A stretch of 64,000 bases of DNA from Halobellus limi (GTDB lineage: Archaea; Halobacteriota; Halobacteria; Halobacteriales; Haloferacaceae). The notes beneath the pieces are model-generated. The model worked only from the letters and a program-made list of their open reading frames with translations. It searched no databases and was not told the origin of the DNA. The DNA lies in NCBI RefSeq assembly GCF_004799685.1, contig NZ_CP031311.1, positions 248,001 to 312,000 of the forward strand, written 5' to 3'. Shown one piece after another: positions 36,795 to 46,985 of the stretch; position 1 is the first letter of the stretch, and each line of letters opens with the position of its first letter. The translations under genes were made by a program, and so were the position numbers.

Positions 36795-38012
36795 TCACTC
36801 CGGGCGCGTCGCTCGGTACGCCCCGAGGCCGACGGCGACCGCACCGAAGACCCCCGCGAGGATCGGGGCGCCGGGGAACGACGGGATCGACCCGCTCTCT
36901 GAGGACGACGGTTCGACCGCGTTCGCCGTCGAGTCGCTTCCGGCGGTCGATCCGGTGGCGTTCGTCCGCGCCCCGGCGACGTCGACGCTGATCGTCGTCC
37001 CCGTCGCCAGCGACTCGTTCGTCGTGAGAAGCGGGATCGGTGCTGACCCGGTCCGGAGGTTCGACGAGTGACGCACCCGCGAGGGGTCGTAGCCCTGGAG
37101 AACCACCGCGAGCGACGTCGTGTTCCGCCGGACCTCCTTCTCGAACCGCGTCCCGGTCAGGTCGTAGGCCGCGCCGACCTGGGTGCTCCCGTTCGCCGGC
37201 ACGCTGACGTTCAGCTCGACGCCCGCGTCCGTCCGCCGATACTCCGCCCCTGAGCCGTCGACCATCGCGGCGTACGCCGACGCGTCGGCGGGCAGTCCGA
37301 CCGTCACAGTCCCGAGGAACGGCCGGTCGCTCGGGTTCTCGAAGGCGATCGTCTCGACGACGCTCGGCGCCTCCGAGTCGTTCGCCGGCGGCACGATCTG
37401 CACGACGTGACCCGTCGGCGTCCGATTCGCGACGCCGAGCACGGACGTGTCGTTCGTCGGCGGCAGCGCGGTGACCGTCACGTTCCCATCCGCCGACGGA
37501 TCGACGGTCCGCCGGTACGCCGCGTTCCCGACGGTGGTGCGGAGCTCGTAGGTCTCGTCGGGTTCGAGCGGACCGAACGCGAACGCGCCCGTCTCGTTCG
37601 TCCGTTTCGTATCGACGACGAACTCGTTCTCGTCGATCAGTTCGACGACCGCGCCGGACTGTGCAGTCCCGTCGGCATCGACGACCCGTCCGGAGAGCTG
37701 CTGGGACAGTTCCACCTCGACCCGCGTACGGTTCTGTAGCACCTCGTAGTGCGTCGCGCCCTCGTGTTCGATCCGGACGGCGTACGCCGGCGCGTCCGGC
37801 GCCTCGACCGAGAAGGACGTTCCCTCGACCGTCGTCGTCACCGCGTCGTCCGTCCGCTGCTGCTGCTCCGTGAGCGGGACGACCTCGACGCGGGCGCCGT
37901 CCGCGCTCCCGCCGTCGACCGTGACCGTCCCGCCCACCGTCGTCGTCGCGCTGGCGACGGGGACGAACGCGAGCGCGCTGAGAACCACGATGAGCGCGAG
38001 CAGCCGTCTCAT
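36795..38012 (-). CDS. secreted protein with carboxypeptidase-regulatory-like domains, Ccm-linked
   Basis: A 405-residue exported protein: a signal peptide (LLALIVVLSALAFVPVASA), two carboxypeptidase-regulatory-like Ig repeats (about 27-100; 105-165 with SGRVVDADGTAQSGAVVEL and ETGAFAFGPLEPDETYEL), a beta-rich domain, a Ser/Thr-rich stalk and a C-terminal membrane helix. Its ATG overlaps the ccmF stop (ATGA), so it is translated with CcmF. No CxxC or heme motif is present. Its place in the operon is where CcmH or CcmI might stand, so a structural role in the maturation complex is an inference. Confidence 0.8.
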   Translation of the reverse strand: MRRLLALIVVLSALAFVPVASATTTVGGTVTVDGGSADGARVEVVPLTEQQQRTDDAVTTTVEGTSFSVEAPDAPAYAVRIEHEGATHYEVLQNRTRVEVELSQQLSGRVVDADGTAQSGAVVELIDENEFVVDTKRTNETGAFAFGPLEPDETYELRTTVGNAAYRRTVDPSADGNVTVTALPPTNDTSVLGVANRTPTGHVVQIVPPANDSEAPSVVETIAFENPSDRPFLGTVTVGLPADASAYAAMVDGSGAEYRRTDAGVELNVSVPANGSTQVGAAYDLTGTRFEKEVRRNTTSLAVVLQGYDPSRVRHSSNLRTGSAPIPLLTTNESLATGTTISVDVAGARTNATGSTAGSDSTANAVEPSSSESGSIPSFPGAPILAGVFGAVAVGLGAYRATRPE

Positions 38013-40459
38013 CGGTCCGACACCTCCGTGACGCCCTCCGGTCGATCGCGGGCCGTCCCGGCGCTCGGTTCGCCGGAGCCGACGACCGAACTCGTTCGCA
38101 CGCCGTGTTTCGGATCGAAGACAAACACGAGCAGCATCCCGAGGAGGAGCGACAGGATGCTCAGGCGCATCAGCGTCACGAAGGGGATCCGCTTGACCGA
38201 CATCGACGCGGTCCCGTCGCTGACGCCGGCGATGACGTACGTGTCGACGAGCGCCCCGCGATCGATCAGCACGTCTCTGACTTGGAGGCCGCCCTGTTCG
38301 GGGTACTCCCGCTGTCCGGCGACGCCGGAGACGACGAGACCGCTGTCGTCGTACACCCCGACGGACACGCCGGTGGCGATCACCCGGGTCGGAACGGCCG
38401 CATCCGGCGGATCGCCGGCGGGACCGACGGTCTCGGGGCCGGCGAGGACGATCACGTCGGCCGTCGGGACGAACTCCCACATCACCTGCCCGCGGGCGAC
38501 GACCTCCTGACCGGTTTCGACGCCCACCGTCCCGTTCCCGGCGACGCCGATCCACACCTGGGAGTCGTCGAGTTGCACCACCGTCGCCTGCGGCCCCTCG
38601 CGTATCGCCGTCACCGTCCCGTGGACGGTCTGCACCGACGTGTTCAGCGACTGTCCGCGCGTGAGGACCTGCGACGAGGAGAGCGCGTACGTCCCCGGTT
38701 CGGGGTCCGTCGGGAACTCGGTCCGCTCGTAGCCGAGCACCCGGACGTCGTAGTCGGACGCGCCGACGTCGCGCTGGGAGGTATCGACCGCGCCGGCCGC
38801 GACGCCGGTCGCCATCACCGACGCCTGTCCGGCGAAGAGATACATAAACGGCAGCGACAGAACGAGCAGCGCCGCGCCGACGTGGATCAGCGTGATTCCG
38901 GTCTCCTTCAGTTTCGCGTCTCGACTCTCCGTGGCGACGATCCGCCCCCACGTCCGCTTGACCGTCCCGAGAATCGCGTACGCCACCGGCGGCAGCACCG
39001 AGAGCGCGCTCGCGCCCCCGATCACCTGATAGACGAGCGCGTCGCCCGGCCGAACGGACGCCAGTCGCCATGTCTCCGACGGCGCGACGGCGGCGCCGAC
39101 GAGCGTCGCGAGGCCGAACACCGCCAGTCCGACGAGGCTCCGGCGGAGGCCCTCCCGGTCGTAGTCCATGTAGAACCCGAGGAGGAGCAGGGCCGCGAGC
39201 ACGAGCGGGTAACTCCACAGGTTGTAGTAGCGCGATTCGACGGACACCTCGAGGCCGGTCATCGCGCTCCGGAGCACCGGGAACGAGAGGCCCCAGAGGG
39301 ACACGAAGGTGAGAAGCCCGAAGAGGAGGACGGCGAGGTGTAGCAGGTTCGAGCGGGTGATCCACCGGGCGAGACGGCTCTCCTCGGTCGGCTCGGAAGC
39401 GGATGCGTCGGCGTCGCTCTCCTCGGTCAGCATCCAGTAGGCGAGCGGGAGCACGACGCCGAGGAGGGTCGTCACCCCCATCAGCACGAGGAACGACGCC
39501 CCGATCCCGCCGTCGGCGAACGAGTGGATGCTCCGGAAGACGCCGCTTCTGACCACCGACGTCGTGTACACCGCGAGCGCGAACACGCTGGCGGTCATCG
39601 CGGGTGCGAGGACCCGATACCGGCCGCCGGGCCGGTAGTTGGTGACCGCGTGCAACGTCGCGGTCAGGAACAGCCACGGGATCAGGATGGCCGTCTCGAC
39701 GGGGTCCCACGCCCAGATCCCGCCCCAGCCGAGCACCGTGTACGACCAGAGGCCGCCGAGCGCGACGGCGGCGGTGAGAAACAGCCACCCGAGTCGGAGC
39801 CAGCGGGTCACGCTGCCGATCCACGCCGAGAAGAGGCCGTCGTCGCCGCGGAACAGCGCGATGAAGTGTGCGGCTCCGATCGCGAACGGCATCGTCAGCA
39901 GCGCGTAGGAGACGAACATCACTGGGGGGTGGATCGCCATGTACGGATCGACGAGGAGGGGGTTCAGCCCCTGTCCGCTCGTCGGCGTGAACCCCGGCGG
40001 CGCGTTGGGGAACGCCGTCCGAACCGACGCGAACGGGCTCTGCAGCAACAGCATCGCCGCGAAGTACGTCACGACGCCGACGGTGAGCGCGTGAACGAGC
40101 TTCCCGCGCCGCGTCGGGTATCCTCGGGTCACGCCGGCGATCAGCGCGACGACGGCGACGATCGAGGCCCACAGGAGCACCGATCCCTCGTTGGCCGCGT
40201 ACACGCCGGTCACGCGGTAGAGCACCGAGAGGTACGCGGCGGTGTTCTCCCACACGTAGGCGTTCGAGTAGTCGAGGCTCACGAACTGGTAGGTGAGATG
40301 CGAGAGGGCACCGACCAGGAGCACCGCCGTCGCCGCGGTCAGCTTCGGAACCCACGGGAGGTACCGGTCGTCGTCGAGGAGATACGCTCGCGCGAGGAGG
40401 GACGTACTCGTCAGTCCGGCGAGGAACGCGAGCGCCAGCAGGACCGTTCCGGGGTTCAC
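38009..40459 (-). CDS. ccmF: cytochrome c heme lyase CcmF
   Basis: An 816-residue multi-pass membrane protein of the CcmF/CycK family, which joins heme from holo-CcmE to apocytochrome c outside the membrane. The WWD heme-handling motif is present (WGGIWAWDPVETAILIPW), preceded by the HPPVMF segment and followed by a long helix array. It is about 150 residues longer than usual: residues ~560-760 form an extracytoplasmic beta-rich region containing an OB-fold-like stretch near 600-665 (VHGTVTAI, GQEVVARGQV). GTG start overlapping the thioredoxin stop (GTGA). Confidence 0.92.
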   Translation of the reverse strand: MNPGTVLLALAFLAGLTSTSLLARAYLLDDDRYLPWVPKLTAATAVLLVGALSHLTYQFVSLDYSNAYVWENTAAYLSVLYRVTGVYAANEGSVLLWASIVAVVALIAGVTRGYPTRRGKLVHALTVGVVTYFAAMLLLQSPFASVRTAFPNAPPGFTPTSGQGLNPLLVDPYMAIHPPVMFVSYALLTMPFAIGAAHFIALFRGDDGLFSAWIGSVTRWLRLGWLFLTAAVALGGLWSYTVLGWGGIWAWDPVETAILIPWLFLTATLHAVTNYRPGGRYRVLAPAMTASVFALAVYTTSVVRSGVFRSIHSFADGGIGASFLVLMGVTTLLGVVLPLAYWMLTEESDADASASEPTEESRLARWITRSNLLHLAVLLFGLLTFVSLWGLSFPVLRSAMTGLEVSVESRYYNLWSYPLVLAALLLLGFYMDYDREGLRRSLVGLAVFGLATLVGAAVAPSETWRLASVRPGDALVYQVIGGASALSVLPPVAYAILGTVKRTWGRIVATESRDAKLKETGITLIHVGAALLVLSLPFMYLFAGQASVMATGVAAGAVDTSQRDVGASDYDVRVLGYERTEFPTDPEPGTYALSSSQVLTRGQSLNTSVQTVHGTVTAIREGPQATVVQLDDSQVWIGVAGNGTVGVETGQEVVARGQVMWEFVPTADVIVLAGPETVGPAGDPPDAAVPTRVIATGVSVGVYDDSGLVVSGVAGQREYPEQGGLQVRDVLIDRGALVDTYVIAGVSDGTASMSVKRIPFVTLMRLSILSLLLGMLLVFVFDPKHGVRTSSVVGSGEPSAGTARDRPEGVTEVSDR

Positions 40460-41022
40460 TGTGCGGCCTCCGTCGTCATCGCCGAGGCCGCTCTGGGGGT
40501 CGACGTCGGTCCGGTAGCGGCTGTCGTAACCGATCCGTTATCGGCCGTCTCGCCGTCCTGGTAGCGCTCTCTGGCCGTCTCCAGGTACGCGAGGAAATCC
40601 TCGGGCGGGGCGTAGCCGGGGATCCGCGTGAGCACGTCGCCCTCGGGCGTCACGACGACGTGCTGCGGCGGGTAGTTGACGTTGTACCGCTGCTGTAGCC
40701 GCGCGTCGGCCTCGGCGTCGCTGTCTAAGTTCACCGCTACCTTCGTGAACTCGTCGAGCTCCGATCGCACCGCCGGATCGCTGTAGTGGTTCTGGTTGTA
40801 GTCCTCACAGTAGGTACACCAGGTCGTCCAGAAGTAGATCACGACCGGTTCGTCCTCCGCGGCGGCGGTCTCGACGGCGTCGGCGTAATCGGTCTGCCAT
40901 CGCGTCTCTCCGTGGTAGGAGTACCCCTCCCCGGAGAGCACGGGCGCCGCGTTCATCGACACGTACCCGATTCCGAGCAGTGCGGCGAAGAAGGCGATCG
41001 TCATCGCCTTTCGTGGATTCAT
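40456..41022 (-). CDS. membrane-anchored thioredoxin (CcmG/DsbE-like role)
   Basis: A 188-residue protein with a single N-terminal membrane helix (AMTIAFFAALLGIGYVSMNA) and a thioredoxin fold outside the membrane. The redox pair is C69-x-x-C72 in FWTTWCTYCEDYNQNHY, and cis-Pro lies in NYPPQHVVV. The sequence is nearer to DsbD-gamma/SoxW-like thioredoxins than to classical CcmG. Being first in the ccmF operon, it is the likely reductant of apocytochrome c cysteines, fed by CcdA encoded across the divergent region. The C-terminal Ala/Thr tail is disordered. Confidence 0.9.
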   Translation of the reverse strand: MNPRKAMTIAFFAALLGIGYVSMNAAPVLSGEGYSYHGETRWQTDYADAVETAAAEDEPVVIYFWTTWCTYCEDYNQNHYSDPAVRSELDEFTKVAVNLDSDAEADARLQQRYNVNYPPQHVVVTPEGDVLTRIPGYAPPEDFLAYLETARERYQDGETADNGSVTTAATGPTSTPRAASAMTTEAAQ

Positions 41023-41261: not shown

Positions 41262-42614
41262 ATGAGCCAGGGCGACTCGACGCTCCTGCTCAAACCCGTC
41301 CTCCTCGTCTTCGGGACGGTGTTCGCGGCGATCGTCGTCGTGTTCGCCATCAACGGTGCCGTCGCGTTCCTCGGCGGCCCGGCGGACGCGCCGGCCGCCA
41401 GCGCCGGCGGCGGCGAGGCCCGCGACCTCCCCGGCACGTGGAACGGCAGCAAGTGGTACAGCGAAGACCTGCGCGAGCAGGGGTTCGAGTACAAGAACGC
41501 GACCGCGGGCGAGGAGGTCAACTTCGTCCCCAAGGAGATGAACGACTCGACGCTCCCGGAGAACGAGAACCGCCGGGAACTCATCCGTGAGGGGCGTTCG
41601 CTCTTCGCGAACACGTCCAACGAGATGCCCGAACACGTCGGGAACGACCTCTCGTGTGCGAACTGCCACGGCGGGGGCGACCTCCCCACGACGACCGGAA
41701 TGGTCGGGCAGGACATCGACATGATCCCGCTCGTCGGGACCGCGGCCGGCTACCCCGAGTGGACCGGTCGCACCCAGCGGATGCGGGACATGCGCCAGCG
41801 GATCATGGGGTGCTTCCTCCGGAGTATGAACGCGCCGGGCTCCGAGGAGGGCGTCCCCGCGTACGACAGCCGCGAGATCCAGGCGATGGAGTCGTACATG
41901 GTCTGGTTGAACAAGGGAACCCCGAGCGAGACCGTCCCCTACTGGCGACACATCGAGAAGCCGGAGGGCGACGAGAAGGTCCCGGTCTCGGAGATCAACC
42001 CGGTCCGCGGGGCCGAGCTGTACCTCGAGAACTGCGCCTCCTGTCACGGTGCAGACGGCCAGGGGACCGAGGGGCAGTACCCGCCGCTTTGGGGCGCGGA
42101 CTCGTTCAACGACGGGGCCGGAATGGGCCGCGTCTACACGTCCGCCGGCTTCACCCGCGAGGCGATGCCGTACGGCGCGGCGCACACGTTCTCCGACTGG
42201 GAGGACGTCCAGGACGTCGCCGGGTTCATGAACGCCCACAAGCGGCCGCACCTCCCGCGACAGCCCAAGGACTGGGCCGCCGCCGGTGCGCCCGATGAGG
42301 CGGTCTACTACAACCGCACGCAGCAGCGTCTCGGGTACGATATGAACCCGATGACGAAGAAGCTCATGCTCGCGGACATCCCGATCGACGACTCGGAGAT
42401 CAACGAGAGCGTGATCCCCGACGACGTCGAGCGGTACGACCAGCCGCTTCGGAACGAGTCCGTCGACGGCTCCTGGCAGACGACGTGGATCCGGACCTAC
42501 GAGGACGTGAACAACTCGACGAGCGACGACGCCGCGAACCGGTCGTCGGTGACCGCCCAGGACGCGGTCACGACCGCCCTGGCGGCAGAGCAGTCCGGCC
42601 GGACGGCGAGCTAA
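41262..42614 (+). CDS. tsdA: diheme cytochrome c, thiosulfate dehydrogenase/tetrathionate reductase (TsdA-like)
   Basis: A 450-residue protein with one N-terminal membrane anchor (8-37) and an outer-facing domain with two heme sites: C132-A-N-C135-H136 and C258-A-S-C261-H262. C184 (RIMGCFLRSMN) sits where TsdA has its heme-1 cysteine ligand. GQYPPLWGADSFNDGAGMGR and M302 (REAMPYG) match the TsdA heme-2 region. TsdA couples two thiosulfates to tetrathionate, or the reverse, one electron at a time. The anchor is unlike soluble bacterial TsdA. The downstream halocyanin is the likely electron partner. Confidence 0.85.
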   Translation: MSQGDSTLLLKPVLLVFGTVFAAIVVVFAINGAVAFLGGPADAPAASAGGGEARDLPGTWNGSKWYSEDLREQGFEYKNATAGEEVNFVPKEMNDSTLPENENRRELIREGRSLFANTSNEMPEHVGNDLSCANCHGGGDLPTTTGMVGQDIDMIPLVGTAAGYPEWTGRTQRMRDMRQRIMGCFLRSMNAPGSEEGVPAYDSREIQAMESYMVWLNKGTPSETVPYWRHIEKPEGDEKVPVSEINPVRGAELYLENCASCHGADGQGTEGQYPPLWGADSFNDGAGMGRVYTSAGFTREAMPYGAAHTFSDWEDVQDVAGFMNAHKRPHLPRQPKDWAAAGAPDEAVYYNRTQQRLGYDMNPMTKKLMLADIPIDDSEINESVIPDDVERYDQPLRNESVDGSWQTTWIRTYEDVNNSTSDDAANRSSVTAQDAVTTALAAEQSGRTAS

Positions 42615-42639: not shown

Positions 42640-43332
42640 ATGATAACCGACCCGACCACCGTCACCGTGTTTCTCGCGGGCGTTTTGACGATCCTGACCC
42701 CGTGCTGTCTCCCGATGATCCCCGTCCTCGTCGTCGGGGCGAACGGGCACCGGCTTCGGCCGGTCGCGATCGTCGTCGGGAGCACGGTGACGTTCACGGC
42801 TCTCGGGATCTTGACCGGGATGGTCGGCTCCGTGACGCCGGATTCCGTCCGCGCGCCGTTCGCCATCCTGATGCTGGCGTTCGGGGCCGTGATGGCCGAC
42901 GACGACCTCAACGAACTCTACTCGCGGTACGCGTCCCGTCTCGCCGGACGGGCCTCGCGGCTCACCGGCCGCATCGACGAGGACGCCCATCCCCTGGGCA
43001 ACGCGCTCGCGGTGGGGCTGCTCCTGGGCGTCATCTGGCTCCCCTGCGTCGGTCCCGTCCTCGGGGGCGTCTTGGCCTACGTCGGGACGACGTCGGACGT
43101 CGTCGGCAGCGCTCGGCTGTTGGCGACGTACGGGGCGGGCTTCTCAGTCCCGCTCCTCGGCGTCGCGTACCTCGGCCAGGCCGGCAGCAGTCGGCTGCTC
43201 GACTCGGCCACGAGCGGGGGGTCGCCCGAACTGTTCCGGACGGCGACCGGCTACGCGCTCGTCGCGCTCGGGATCGCCGTCCTCTTCGGTCTCGACAAAC
43301 TCGCGCTCGCATCGGTAACGACGTGGACGTAA
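42640..43332 (+). CDS. ccdA: CcdA-type thiol-disulfide membrane transporter
   Basis: A 230-residue six-helix membrane protein. The two conserved cysteines are in LTPCCLPMIP (helix 1) and LPCVGPVLGG (helix 4), the CcdA/DsbD-beta pattern. It carries reducing power from cytoplasmic thioredoxin to the outside, where it would reduce the thioredoxin at 40456-41022 and keep apocytochrome cysteines free for heme. It starts 25 nt after the cytochrome gene in the same operon. Confidence 0.92.
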   Translation: MITDPTTVTVFLAGVLTILTPCCLPMIPVLVVGANGHRLRPVAIVVGSTVTFTALGILTGMVGSVTPDSVRAPFAILMLAFGAVMADDDLNELYSRYASRLAGRASRLTGRIDEDAHPLGNALAVGLLLGVIWLPCVGPVLGGVLAYVGTTSDVVGSARLLATYGAGFSVPLLGVAYLGQAGSSRLLDSATSGGSPELFRTATGYALVALGIAVLFGLDKLALASVTTWT

Positions 43333-43336
43333 CAGC

Positions 43337-44122
43337 ATGAACGGTAGCTCATCGACACAGGACGACGACGCGCACGATCGCACGAGCAGAGACCGCAGCG
43401 TTCGCTTCGCCCGGTTCCTCGGGACGGTCACGGGCGTTCTCCACCGCGTGACGGGCAGTCGGTTCGTCGCGTGGGGCGCGTTCGGCTTCGGACTGCTCTC
43501 GATGGTGTTGGTCTTCGGGTTCGCGTCCGACACGATGTACGGGATCGAACACGGCGCGAACCTCCTCGCGTACTGGCACATCTCGCTCGCGTGGGTCGCC
43601 GCCGCGGCACTCGGATCGACGTTCGTCGGCAGCGCGCTGTATCTTCGCTACCGGGGGCCGTTCTGGAGCCGGCTGGCCCACAGCTCCGGCGAACTGGGGT
43701 TCCTCTTCGCGACGCTGACGCTGCTTCTGGGCAGCGCGTGGGGGCGCGTCATCTGGAACTCCTGGTGGGAGTGGACCGACGTCAGGCTGGTGACGTTTCT
43801 GATCGTCTGGTTCATCTACGCGGGCTACCTCGTCGTTCACTCCGCGACCGACGCTCAGTCGGGCGACCGGTACGCGGCGGTCTACGGCGTCGTCGGATTC
43901 GTCACCGTCCCGCTGTCGTACGCGTCCACGCGGCTCTGGACGCCGACGTTTCACGAGACCACGATCGGGAACAGCGGCGTCAGTGCGAACATCGACCCGC
44001 TGACGCTCGTCGTGACGCTCGTCGCGGCGACGTTCCTCTATCTGTACCTCGTCGGTATCCGGATCCGCATCCACGAACTCGAACAGGACGTCCGCAGAGC
44101 ACGGCTCTCACGGAGGCGATAA
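43337..44122 (+). CDS. ccmC: heme exporter permease CcmC
   Basis: A 261-residue six-helix protein. The tryptophan-rich heme-handling loop SAWGRVIWNSWWEWTDVRL at about 133-151 is the WWD motif of CcmC, and His residues flank it (H81, H115). With CcmA/CcmB it forms the ABC-type complex that loads heme onto CcmE. It starts 4 nt after ccdA and is followed by ccmD. A polar charged head (DDDAHDRTSRDR) precedes the first helix. Confidence 0.92.
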   Translation: MNGSSSTQDDDAHDRTSRDRSVRFARFLGTVTGVLHRVTGSRFVAWGAFGFGLLSMVLVFGFASDTMYGIEHGANLLAYWHISLAWVAAAALGSTFVGSALYLRYRGPFWSRLAHSSGELGFLFATLTLLLGSAWGRVIWNSWWEWTDVRLVTFLIVWFIYAGYLVVHSATDAQSGDRYAAVYGVVGFVTVPLSYASTRLWTPTFHETTIGNSGVSANIDPLTLVVTLVAATFLYLYLVGIRIRIHELEQDVRRARLSRRR

Positions 44123-45052: not shown

Positions 45053-45120
45053 CGGGCGTCGCCTCCGACCTCACTCGGGCGTCGCCTCCGACCTCACTCG
45101 GGCGTCGCCTCCGACCTCAC
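45053..45120 (+). repeat. three-copy 23-bp tandem repeat
   Basis: Units at 45053-45075, 45076-45098 and 45099-45120 (the last one base short) share CGGGCGTCGCCTCCGACCTC. They sit between the convergent halocyanin and ccmB genes, and the last unit runs into the ccmB stop. They may be slippage products or part of a shared termination region. Confidence 0.92.
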
Positions 45121-45791
45121 GTCTCGACGACGTACTCGAAGGTCGCGACGCCGGCGAGCAGTACGATCCCGGTGTACAGTCCGAGGAGTCGGAGCCAGCC
45201 GCCGAGCGGCGCGCCGCTTTCGAGCGCCGCAGTGAGTTCGACCCCGGCCAGCAGCAGCGGAACGACGAGCGGAACGAGGAGGACCGGCAGCGCCAGTTCG
45301 TCGAGGCCCGAGCGAAACGTCAGAATCGAGACGACGACGCCGATGGCGGAAAATCCGAGCGCGGCGACGGAGAGCACCGCCACGACCGAGACCGCCGTGG
45401 AGACCGACGGAGCGTACCCGAGAAAGACCGTGGTCGCACCCAGCGTCACGACGCTCACCGCGAAGACGAACACCGCCGCGCTGAGCACTTTTCCCAGATA
45501 GATCGCCGACCGATCGACTGGGGCGACCAGCATCCCGTCGAGCGCCCCGTTCCGGTCTTCGAGTTCGACCGTCTTGGTGACGCCGAACGTCCCGGCGAAC
45601 ACGAAGGCGACCCACAGCGCACCGCGGCCGAGCAACGCCGAGCGCTGGAGCGTCTGGACGAAACTGAACGCGAACACGAGCACGACGAGCAGCGCGAAGA
45701 CGGCGACGGTGGTCGTCACCTGCTTCGTCCGCCGTTCGATCCGGAGGTCCTTTCTGAACACCCGGTAGACCGCCCGGAGAAACGCGCTCAT
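45117..45791 (-). CDS. ccmB: heme exporter permease CcmB
   Basis: A 224-residue protein with six membrane helices, beginning VYRVFRKDLRIERRTKQ and with FGVTKTVELEDRNGALDGMLVAP after helix 2, which is the CcmB loop. It forms the permease of the ABC complex with CcmA and CcmC. The gene is the last of the ccmE-ccmA-ccmB operon on the minus strand, 19 nt after ccmA. Length matches the family. Confidence 0.9.
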   Translation of the reverse strand: MSAFLRAVYRVFRKDLRIERRTKQVTTTVAVFALLVVLVFAFSFVQTLQRSALLGRGALWVAFVFAGTFGVTKTVELEDRNGALDGMLVAPVDRSAIYLGKVLSAAVFVFAVSVVTLGATTVFLGYAPSVSTAVSVVAVLSVAALGFSAIGVVVSILTFRSGLDELALPVLLVPLVVPLLLAGVELTAALESGAPLGGWLRLLGLYTGIVLLAGVATFEYVVET

Positions 45792-45810
45792 CGGCCCGTC
45801 CCGGCGGCGG

Positions 45811-46578
45811 TCATCGCGCCGGGTCCCCCCTCGGTTCCCGCTCGGAGTCGACGCCGATCGTCCGGCGATACGCCTCGGCGAACGACGCCGCGTCCCCGAG
45901 CGCGAGGTCCGCCTCGAGGCGACCGCGATCGACGACGAGCCCCCGGTCGCAGCGGGCGACACCGCGTTCGAGGTCGTGCGTCGTCAGAACGACGGTCCGG
46001 TCGTCGAACCCGTCGAGGACGGCTTCGAGGTCGGCGGCTGAGTGCTGGTCGAGTCCGGTGTACGGCTCGTCGAGCAACAGCACCTCGGGATCGTGGAGCA
46101 GCGCGCGGGCGAGCGACAGCCGCTTCCGAAGCCCGTGTGAGAACGCCGCCGGTCGGTCGCTCCCGCGGCGGGACAGCCCGACGGTATCGAGTACCGACGC
46201 ACACCGGTCCGCGGGGTCGTCGACGCCGTGAAGGTCCGCGTGGAACCGGAGGTTCTCCCGGGCGGTGAGGTCGTCGTACAGCATCGTCTCGTGAGTGACG
46301 ACGCCGATCGTTCGGTAGGTGGCGTAGTCGTCCGGGGCCAGTTCCACGCCGTCGACCGTGATCGTCCCGCGGGTCGGTCGCGCGAGCCCCGCCATCATCC
46401 GAAGCAACGTCGTTTTGCCCGCGCCGTTCGGGCCGAACAGCCCGACCGTCGAGCCGCGTTCGACGGCGAACGACAGGCCGTCGACGGCGGTGAAGTGCCC
46501 GTACGATTTCGTCACGTCTTCGACGGCGATCGCCGGGGGGTTCGAGGCCGTCTCCGCGCGCTCGCCCACCGCCGTCAT
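45811..46578 (-). CDS. ccmA: heme exporter ATPase CcmA
   Basis: A 255-residue ABC ATPase. Walker A GPNGAGKTT and Walker B LLLDEPYTGLD are normal, while the signature is FSHGLRKRLSLARALL, a variant lacking the canonical LSGGQ. CcmA powers release of holo-CcmE from CcmCD. The ATG overlaps the ccmE stop (ATGA). An extended in-frame N-terminal sequence upstream is Arg-rich and overlaps ccmE, so it is not used. Confidence 0.9.
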   Translation of the reverse strand: MTAVGERAETASNPPAIAVEDVTKSYGHFTAVDGLSFAVERGSTVGLFGPNGAGKTTLLRMMAGLARPTRGTITVDGVELAPDDYATYRTIGVVTHETMLYDDLTARENLRFHADLHGVDDPADRCASVLDTVGLSRRGSDRPAAFSHGLRKRLSLARALLHDPEVLLLDEPYTGLDQHSAADLEAVLDGFDDRTVVLTTHDLERGVARCDRGLVVDRGRLEADLALGDAASFAEAYRRTIGVDSEREPRGDPAR

Positions 46579-46985
46579 CGAGTGCTCTCGGGCCGCTCCT
46601 CGCCTTCGTGTGCACGGACGGAGAGTTTGTTCGCGACCAGTCGGTCCCCCTCGAACTGTCCCTTGGCGACGACGACGCGGCCGTCTTGGAGCGTATCGGG
46701 GACCGTCCCCTCGTAGACCACCGGGACGGTGTGGTTCCCGTCGGTCACCGCGAAGGTGATCGTCTCTCCGTCGACGTCGAGGTCGGTGACGACGCCCTCG
46801 AGGTTGACCCACTCTTCTTGGTACGTCCCGTCCGATTCCGAGAGTTGCGTCGGCGACACGAACGCGGCCGAGGCGTTCATACTCGTCACGCCGAGGGTGG
46901 CCAAGAGGACGAGTACCCCGACGGTCGTGACGAGCAGTTTGTTCTTCCGGCGCACGTGTGCGGTTCGTACGCGGCTACCCTTCAT
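46575..46985 (-). CDS. ccmE: heme chaperone CcmE (variant)
   Basis: A 136-residue protein with one N-terminal membrane helix (LLVTTVGVLVLLATLGVTSM) and an OB-fold outside the membrane (LEGVVTDLDVDG, VVVAKGQFEGDRLVANKL). CcmE binds heme covalently through a His or Cys in an H/C-xxx-Y motif before handing it to CcmF. Here the region reads VRAHEGEERPES: a His (H126) is present but the Tyr position holds Glu, and there is no Cys. It is the first gene of the ccmEAB operon. Confidence 0.88.
   Translation of the reverse strand: MKGSRVRTAHVRRKNKLLVTTVGVLVLLATLGVTSMNASAAFVSPTQLSESDGTYQEEWVNLEGVVTDLDVDGETITFAVTDGNHTVPVVYEGTVPDTLQDGRVVVAKGQFEGDRLVANKLSVRAHEGEERPESTR

Follow-up and report, generated by a model that had tools for sequence, protein, structure and literature searches.

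An inserted OB-fold domain in the extracytoplasmic beta-domain of CcmF from Halobellus limi and related archaea

The cytochrome c heme lyase CcmF of the haloarchaeon Halobellus limi carries an additional domain with a predicted OB fold, and this domain is the subject of the present analysis. The gene lies in a stretch of 64,000 nucleotides (contig NZ_CP031311.1, positions 248,001 to 312,000 of the forward strand), which we call the window and whose own numbering is used throughout. The gene and its relevant parts are as follows.

38009..40459, minus strand: ccmF, cytochrome c heme lyase carrying the OB insert; 816 residues, GTG start
38708..38824, minus strand: first half of the CcmF extracytoplasmic beta-domain, residues 546-584, from the model aligned to 6zmq
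38411..38707, minus strand: inserted OB-fold domain, residues ~585-683, from the alignment with insert-less CcmF, the AlphaFold2 model and a fold search
38552..38554, minus strand: codon of Trp636 in OB strand 3, a Trp in 58 of 62 sequences
38180..38410, minus strand: second half of the beta-domain, residues 684-760, from the alignment, model and fold search

The protein is recognized as CcmF by the Pfam families Cytochrom_C_asm (5.1e-26; 92.1 bits against a cut-off of 29.9) and CcmF_C (5e-8; 33 bits against 28.7), and a sequence search matched it to the solved CcmF of Thermus thermophilus, 6zmq, at 1.5e-41. It has the core, the WWD motif, the four histidines and the beta-domain in common with this protein and its families (PF01578 and PF16327); it differs from 6zmq by the OB domain of ~100 residues within the beta-domain, and CcmH is not found in its genome. 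In the alignment, the WWD motif (residues 245-255) and all four histidines (H177, H270, H312 and H526) are kept in the haloarchaeal relatives. We take these histidines to correspond to the heme-ligating ones of E. coli CcmF. Because these catalytic motifs are kept, the protein appears to be a working-type heme lyase of an archaeal subfamily. It misses the NCBIfam cut-offs (TIGR00353, 170 bits against 569; TIGR03145, 178 against 927), and on its sequence would be classed as a divergent CcmF outside the curated CcmF/NrfE subfamilies. Among the matches listed, the nearest named relative is Halobellus rufus, at 94% identity.

A sequence-only reading of this locus had noted that the protein is longer than usual and that its outer region, near residues 600-665, has the strand pattern of an OB fold; both observations hold up. 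Measured as stop-to-stop open reading frames (ORFs), CcmF without the insert have a median length of 664 residues (582-793, n=62) and those with it 793 residues (745-873, n=71), the insert making up about 100 of the extra residues. Alignment with the CcmF of other archaea places these ~100 residues between strands of the beta-domain. An AlphaFold2 run on residues 546-760 with 62 aligned sequences (model numbering is shifted by 545) gave a model of the beta-domain and insert with a predicted local distance difference test (pLDDT) score of 86.9. In this model the insert is composed of a helix (595-605) followed by strands 609-621, 625-630, 635-640, 652-664 and 667-680, and the two strings first quoted for their OB-like pattern, VHGTVTAI (612-619) and GQEVVARGQV (650-659), are both OB-fold strands. 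Using VIA-align, model residues ~40-138 (protein ~585-683) were superimposed on the OB domains of Asp-, Asn- and Lys-tRNA synthetases with a Z of ~10, the best of these matches covering 89 residues at 2.5 Å, and the host beta-domain (model 1-215) was superimposed on 6zmq 513-609 over 96 residues (Z 10.2, 2.7 Å). The Foldseek E-values were modest (best 1.3e-3, with a probability of 1.00). No CcmE structure was among the 50 VIA-align rows for the insert model, which excludes nothing. The model shows a five-stranded OB topology for the insert, and an OB domain that splits an ordinary CcmF beta-domain while leaving both parts recognizable.

Far from being confined to this genome, the insert is normal for CcmF in a large clade of archaea. 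In a survey of one-genome-per-species contigs, 80 loci were kept of at least 572 confirmed relatives, and 61 of the 80 have the insert. The 19 without it, which show that it is not common to all CcmF, comprise ten bacterial loci, eight archaeal loci (Archaeoglobi, Pyrohabitans/Hydrothermarchaeota and relatives, and one unclassified) and L123 from a Methanoperedens bin, where the ccmF gene is also frameshifted. A quick tree, with support from the Shimodaira-Hasegawa-like approximate likelihood ratio test (SH-aLRT) only and no bootstrap, was built from CcmF residues 20-545 with the insert columns left out, using the 86 of 133 rows that remained after removal of near-copies. The insert-bearing CcmF form one clade (SH-aLRT 97) of 35 insert rows and the one broken gene, with members from haloarchaea, Methanoperedens, Argoarchaeum and some unclassified archaea, and the insert takes two changes on the tree, one gain plus L123. 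It was gained once by an archaeal CcmF subfamily, inside the extracytoplasmic beta-domain; insert-bearing CcmF may also occur elsewhere, bacteria included. PF16327 matched 126 of 294 genomes of the phylum, and the aligned loci are a part of these (in L011-L060). Within the class, CcmF is present in 8 of 79 genomes in nine copies, all of which, the window's included, carry the insert in the alignment; CcmE is present in the same eight.

Two side observations belong here. An insert-bearing ccmF locus was found on a plasmid of Natronorubrum bangense (L079), which, together with the presence of CcmF in 8 of 79 genomes, suggests that the system has been transferred between haloarchaea. One genome (G037) has two insert-bearing CcmF paralogues (L004 and L010) and one CcmE, with a TGA inside the matched frame of L010.

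The insert had also been likened to the OB fold of CcmE. This likeness stands at the level of a superfamily, but CcmE is not the closest relative that we found. In hhalign, the insert profile (62 rows) matched a CcmE profile (30 rows) at 95.8% (E 7.5e-9), and the haloarchaeal inserts alone at 73%; as controls, thioredoxin gave 0.1% and the host beta-domain of insert-less CcmF 0.8%. Of 11,190 ORFs, 6-7 encoding CcmF were matched at E<=1e-3 by a CcmE-only profile, from which every CcmF had been excluded, and for most of the matches listed the insert was the significant stretch. When 294 genomes of the phylum were searched with the insert profile, 162 had a match at E<=0.01, mostly weak and probably due to other OB proteins; seven places were examined, and the top matches other than CcmF itself were to short proteins that contain the OB unit once or twice. 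A set of seven exported archaeal OB proteins (L191-L197; 11 OB stretches aligned) matched the insert at 99.4% (E 2e-21) and CcmE at 97.2%. The best match to the insert was 98 bits for this set versus 31 bits for CcmE, a comparison that favours the exported set, which was picked by its match to the insert profile. Going by the profiles, the insert, the exported OB proteins and CcmE form one superfamily, with the insert nearest to the free proteins. With the same reservation, these closer proteins make it less likely that the insert descends directly from CcmE.

Each of these relatives has its own likeness to the insert. CcmE (PF03100) is exported, has an OB fold and a related profile, but the insert is a part of CcmF and lacks the heme-binding Cys/His/Tyr tail. 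The exported proteins, single or tandem, have the closest profile found and, unlike the insert, are free-standing; the closest relatives outside CcmF are two tandem OB proteins with N-termini that by eye look lipoprotein-like (L191, 2140-2907, minus strand; L192, 1499-2329, minus strand). The anticodon-binding OB domain of the class II aminoacyl-tRNA synthetases (PF01336) shares the fold over ~89 residues, but it is cytoplasmic, and the profile match of all inserts to the archaeal aspartyl-tRNA synthetase OB (23 of 30 fetched OB loci used) was weak, at 30.7%, which speaks little for it as the source. Of the Pfam models run against the 62 inserts, PF03100 matched 8 at E<=1 (best 3.8e-4) and PF01336 matched 16 (best 3.6e-6), neither of them the window insert; the insert of L041 reached 23.6 bits with PF01336, for which the cut-off is 27. 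A PDB sequence search with the insert profile gave nothing at E<=0.01 (best 0.041).

Conservation within the insert is low. It is the fastest-changing part of the protein, with a median identity between haloarchaea and others of 20%, compared to 24% for the host domain and 35% for the core. Gly614 and Gly657 are found in all 62 inserts and Trp636 in 58. The 62 inserts contain three Cys in total, each in a different column, and His reaches at most 15 of 62 in any column, with haloarchaea contributing none of these. The HXXXY/CXXXY tail of CcmE is absent, and the hhalign match to CcmE ends ahead of this heme-binding tail. Judging from these residues, the insert does not appear to be a CcmE.

The CcmE of the genome, the only one found with PF03100, is unusual in itself.

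46575..46985, minus strand: ccmE, 136 residues, OB fold, RAHEGE in place of CXXXY/HXXXY

Its model was folded from one sequence and has a pLDDT of 66. All 28 haloarchaeal CcmE (the window, L061-L086 and L094) have RAH followed by E, D or N at the CXXXY/HXXXY site, while CXXXY or CXXXF is found in the 30 CcmE from other archaea and HXXXY in four from actinobacteria. In an eLife paper of 2022 (PMC9084895), archaeal CcmE are said to contain CXXXY universally, a statement that the haloarchaeal proteins, as far as their sequences tell, contradict. The sequence-only reading had proposed that the insert compensates for the odd CcmE. The oddity is thus a general one in haloarchaea, but the compensation does not follow: in four loci (L090, L093, L097 and L111) an insert-bearing CcmF is accompanied by a CcmE with the ordinary CXXXY motif, and because of these the insert is wider than the change in CcmE and no answer to it.

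The position of the insert-bearing gene next to a thioredoxin gene is the other constant feature of the subfamily. The genes concerned in the window are these.

40456..41022, minus strand: membrane-anchored thioredoxin-like protein (WCxxC), 188 residues, Pfam Thioredoxin_2 1.7e-14
42640..43332, plus strand: ccdA/DsbD-type membrane electron carrier

The thioredoxin gene shares 4 bases with the start of ccmF, and the membrane anchor was judged by eye from the hydrophobic N-terminus. Using a profile grown from the window protein and a threshold of E<=1e-10, the ORF directly upstream was surveyed for 133 CcmF. A thioredoxin was found for 69 of the 71 with the insert (68 intact; L110 has an 80-residue fragment), and for 3 of the 62 without it, namely the broken L123 and two Chloroflexi in which the match was weaker. 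After removal of near-copies, the counts were 34 of 35 and 2 of 51. The thioredoxin of L114 and L115 persists only as frameshifted remnants. The tie between insert and thioredoxin is old and tight, yet it counts as one event, because the insert-bearing CcmF form one clade. In a Methanoperedens locus (L098, 4908-11295), the order is a PCYCGC protein, a CcdA-type protein, a Fer4_5 protein, the thioredoxin and the insert-bearing CcmF.

What could such a domain do? We tentatively prefer to read it as a docking platform over the active site, one that would do part of the work of the missing CcmH. According to a JBC paper of 2023 (PMC10663686), the beta-domain of CcmF caps the active-site heme from directly above, and an OB domain within it would therefore sit where holo-CcmE, apocytochrome and the thiol reductant meet. 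A platform is favoured because no heme ligand is conserved in the OB domain itself. The domain would hold a partner over the active site and in this way cover a part of the job of bacterial CcmH (PF03918), which was found in 0 of 79 genomes of the class by a search that detected it in 4 of 14 control genomes. As partner, the strongest candidate would be the membrane-anchored thioredoxin encoded immediately upstream, perhaps along with the apocytochrome; the thioredoxin would reduce the CXXCH cysteines, with electrons presumably arriving via the CcdA-type protein encoded nearby.

Several points weigh against the docking platform. The insert and the thioredoxin linkage each arose about once, so that their association amounts to a single event, and in the Argoarchaeum-type loci L110, L114 and L115 the insert is intact while the thioredoxin has decayed. 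Over 28 haloarchaeal loci, insert and thioredoxin show no covariation in evolutionary rate after the CcmF core has been taken out (partial r -0.25), although this test is uninformative. The absence of CcmH does not demand an insert, since Methanosarcina acetivorans can produce cytochrome c with no more than CcmABCEF1F2 (PMC9084895); ANME-2d have CcmH homologues, as stated in a PLoS Biol paper of 2022 (PMC9012536). A bolder proposal, that CcmF-OB and the co-encoded thioredoxin constitute a distinct archaeal lyase unit replacing CcmFH, with the OB domain in haloarchaea, whose CcmE has lost the two known heme-binding motifs, taking part directly in the heme hand-over by a route unseen in bacteria, strikes us as a long shot.

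The partner might instead be CcmE itself, as the sequence-only reading also suggested, held over the lyase for heme transfer through a contact between the two OB domains. The CcmE-like profile of the insert fits this idea, as does the single CcmE of all the sampled haloarchaeal genomes with this CcmF (the same 8 of 79), and the rates of insert and CcmE show a weak positive covariation (partial r 0.16, in the same uninformative test). However, insert-less CcmF occur with CcmE in other archaea and in bacteria, and the exported OB proteins are nearer to the insert than CcmE is; CcmE docking seems rather unlikely to us. Somewhat less likely still is a domain that has no dedicated partner and serves the cap structurally, as a lid or spacer. 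Its rapid change and few conserved residues would suit such a role, but Trp636 is nearly invariant, and within the clade the insert is missing from one gene alone, the broken L123, no intact member having been seen without it.

One of the two roles first proposed for the insert, that of receiving or carrying heme in compensation for the odd haloarchaeal CcmE, is by far the least probable of these. It draws on the kinship of the insert to CcmE and on the missing CXXXY and HXXXY of the 28 haloarchaeal CcmE. The composition of the insert speaks against it: a heme-carrying role is unlikely because there is no conserved Cys or His and because the match to CcmE stops before the heme-binding tail, and the four loci in which CcmE keeps an ordinary CXXXY beside the insert count against it too.

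It is also worth asking whether this subfamily is one already described. The CcmF2 of anaerobic methanotrophic archaea (ANME) and Argoarchaeum is, like the insert-bearing CcmF, a specialized CcmF paralogue, and it adjoins the large multiheme cytochrome MHC-B, according to PMC9012536. The two are probably not the same, since an ORF with three or more heme motifs was found in 1 of the 43 loci scanned (L117; scanned were L087-L093 and L095-L130). No OB domain is mentioned in the section on CcmF duplication of that paper. In searches of open-licence PubMed Central, no title or abstract listed describes the insert and one review of 2013 joins CcmF with an OB fold; as far as this collection was searched, an OB insert in CcmF is not in print. 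The findings define an archaeal CcmF subfamily by a module added to the cap over the active site and by a thioredoxin gene as its fixed neighbour, expose haloarchaeal CcmE as lacking a motif called universal, and make the question of how archaea mature cytochrome c without CcmH testable by deletion in a culturable haloarchaeon.

The remaining neighbours of ccmF, which also include a cytochrome c gene at 41262-42614, are as follows.

36795..38012, minus strand: exported protein with a carboxypeptidase-regulatory-like domain, export judged by eye from the signal-like N-terminus
43337..44122, plus strand: ccmC, Pfam Cytochrom_C_asm; TIGR01191 at 2.8e-23, under its cut-off
45117..45962, minus strand: ccmB, start codon not settled
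45811..46812, minus strand: ccmA, start codon not settled

The gene at 36795..38012 shares 4 bases with the stop of ccmF, and it may belong to the lyase operon as a third component. Relatives of this protein adjoin ccmF in 20 other haloarchaeal loci.

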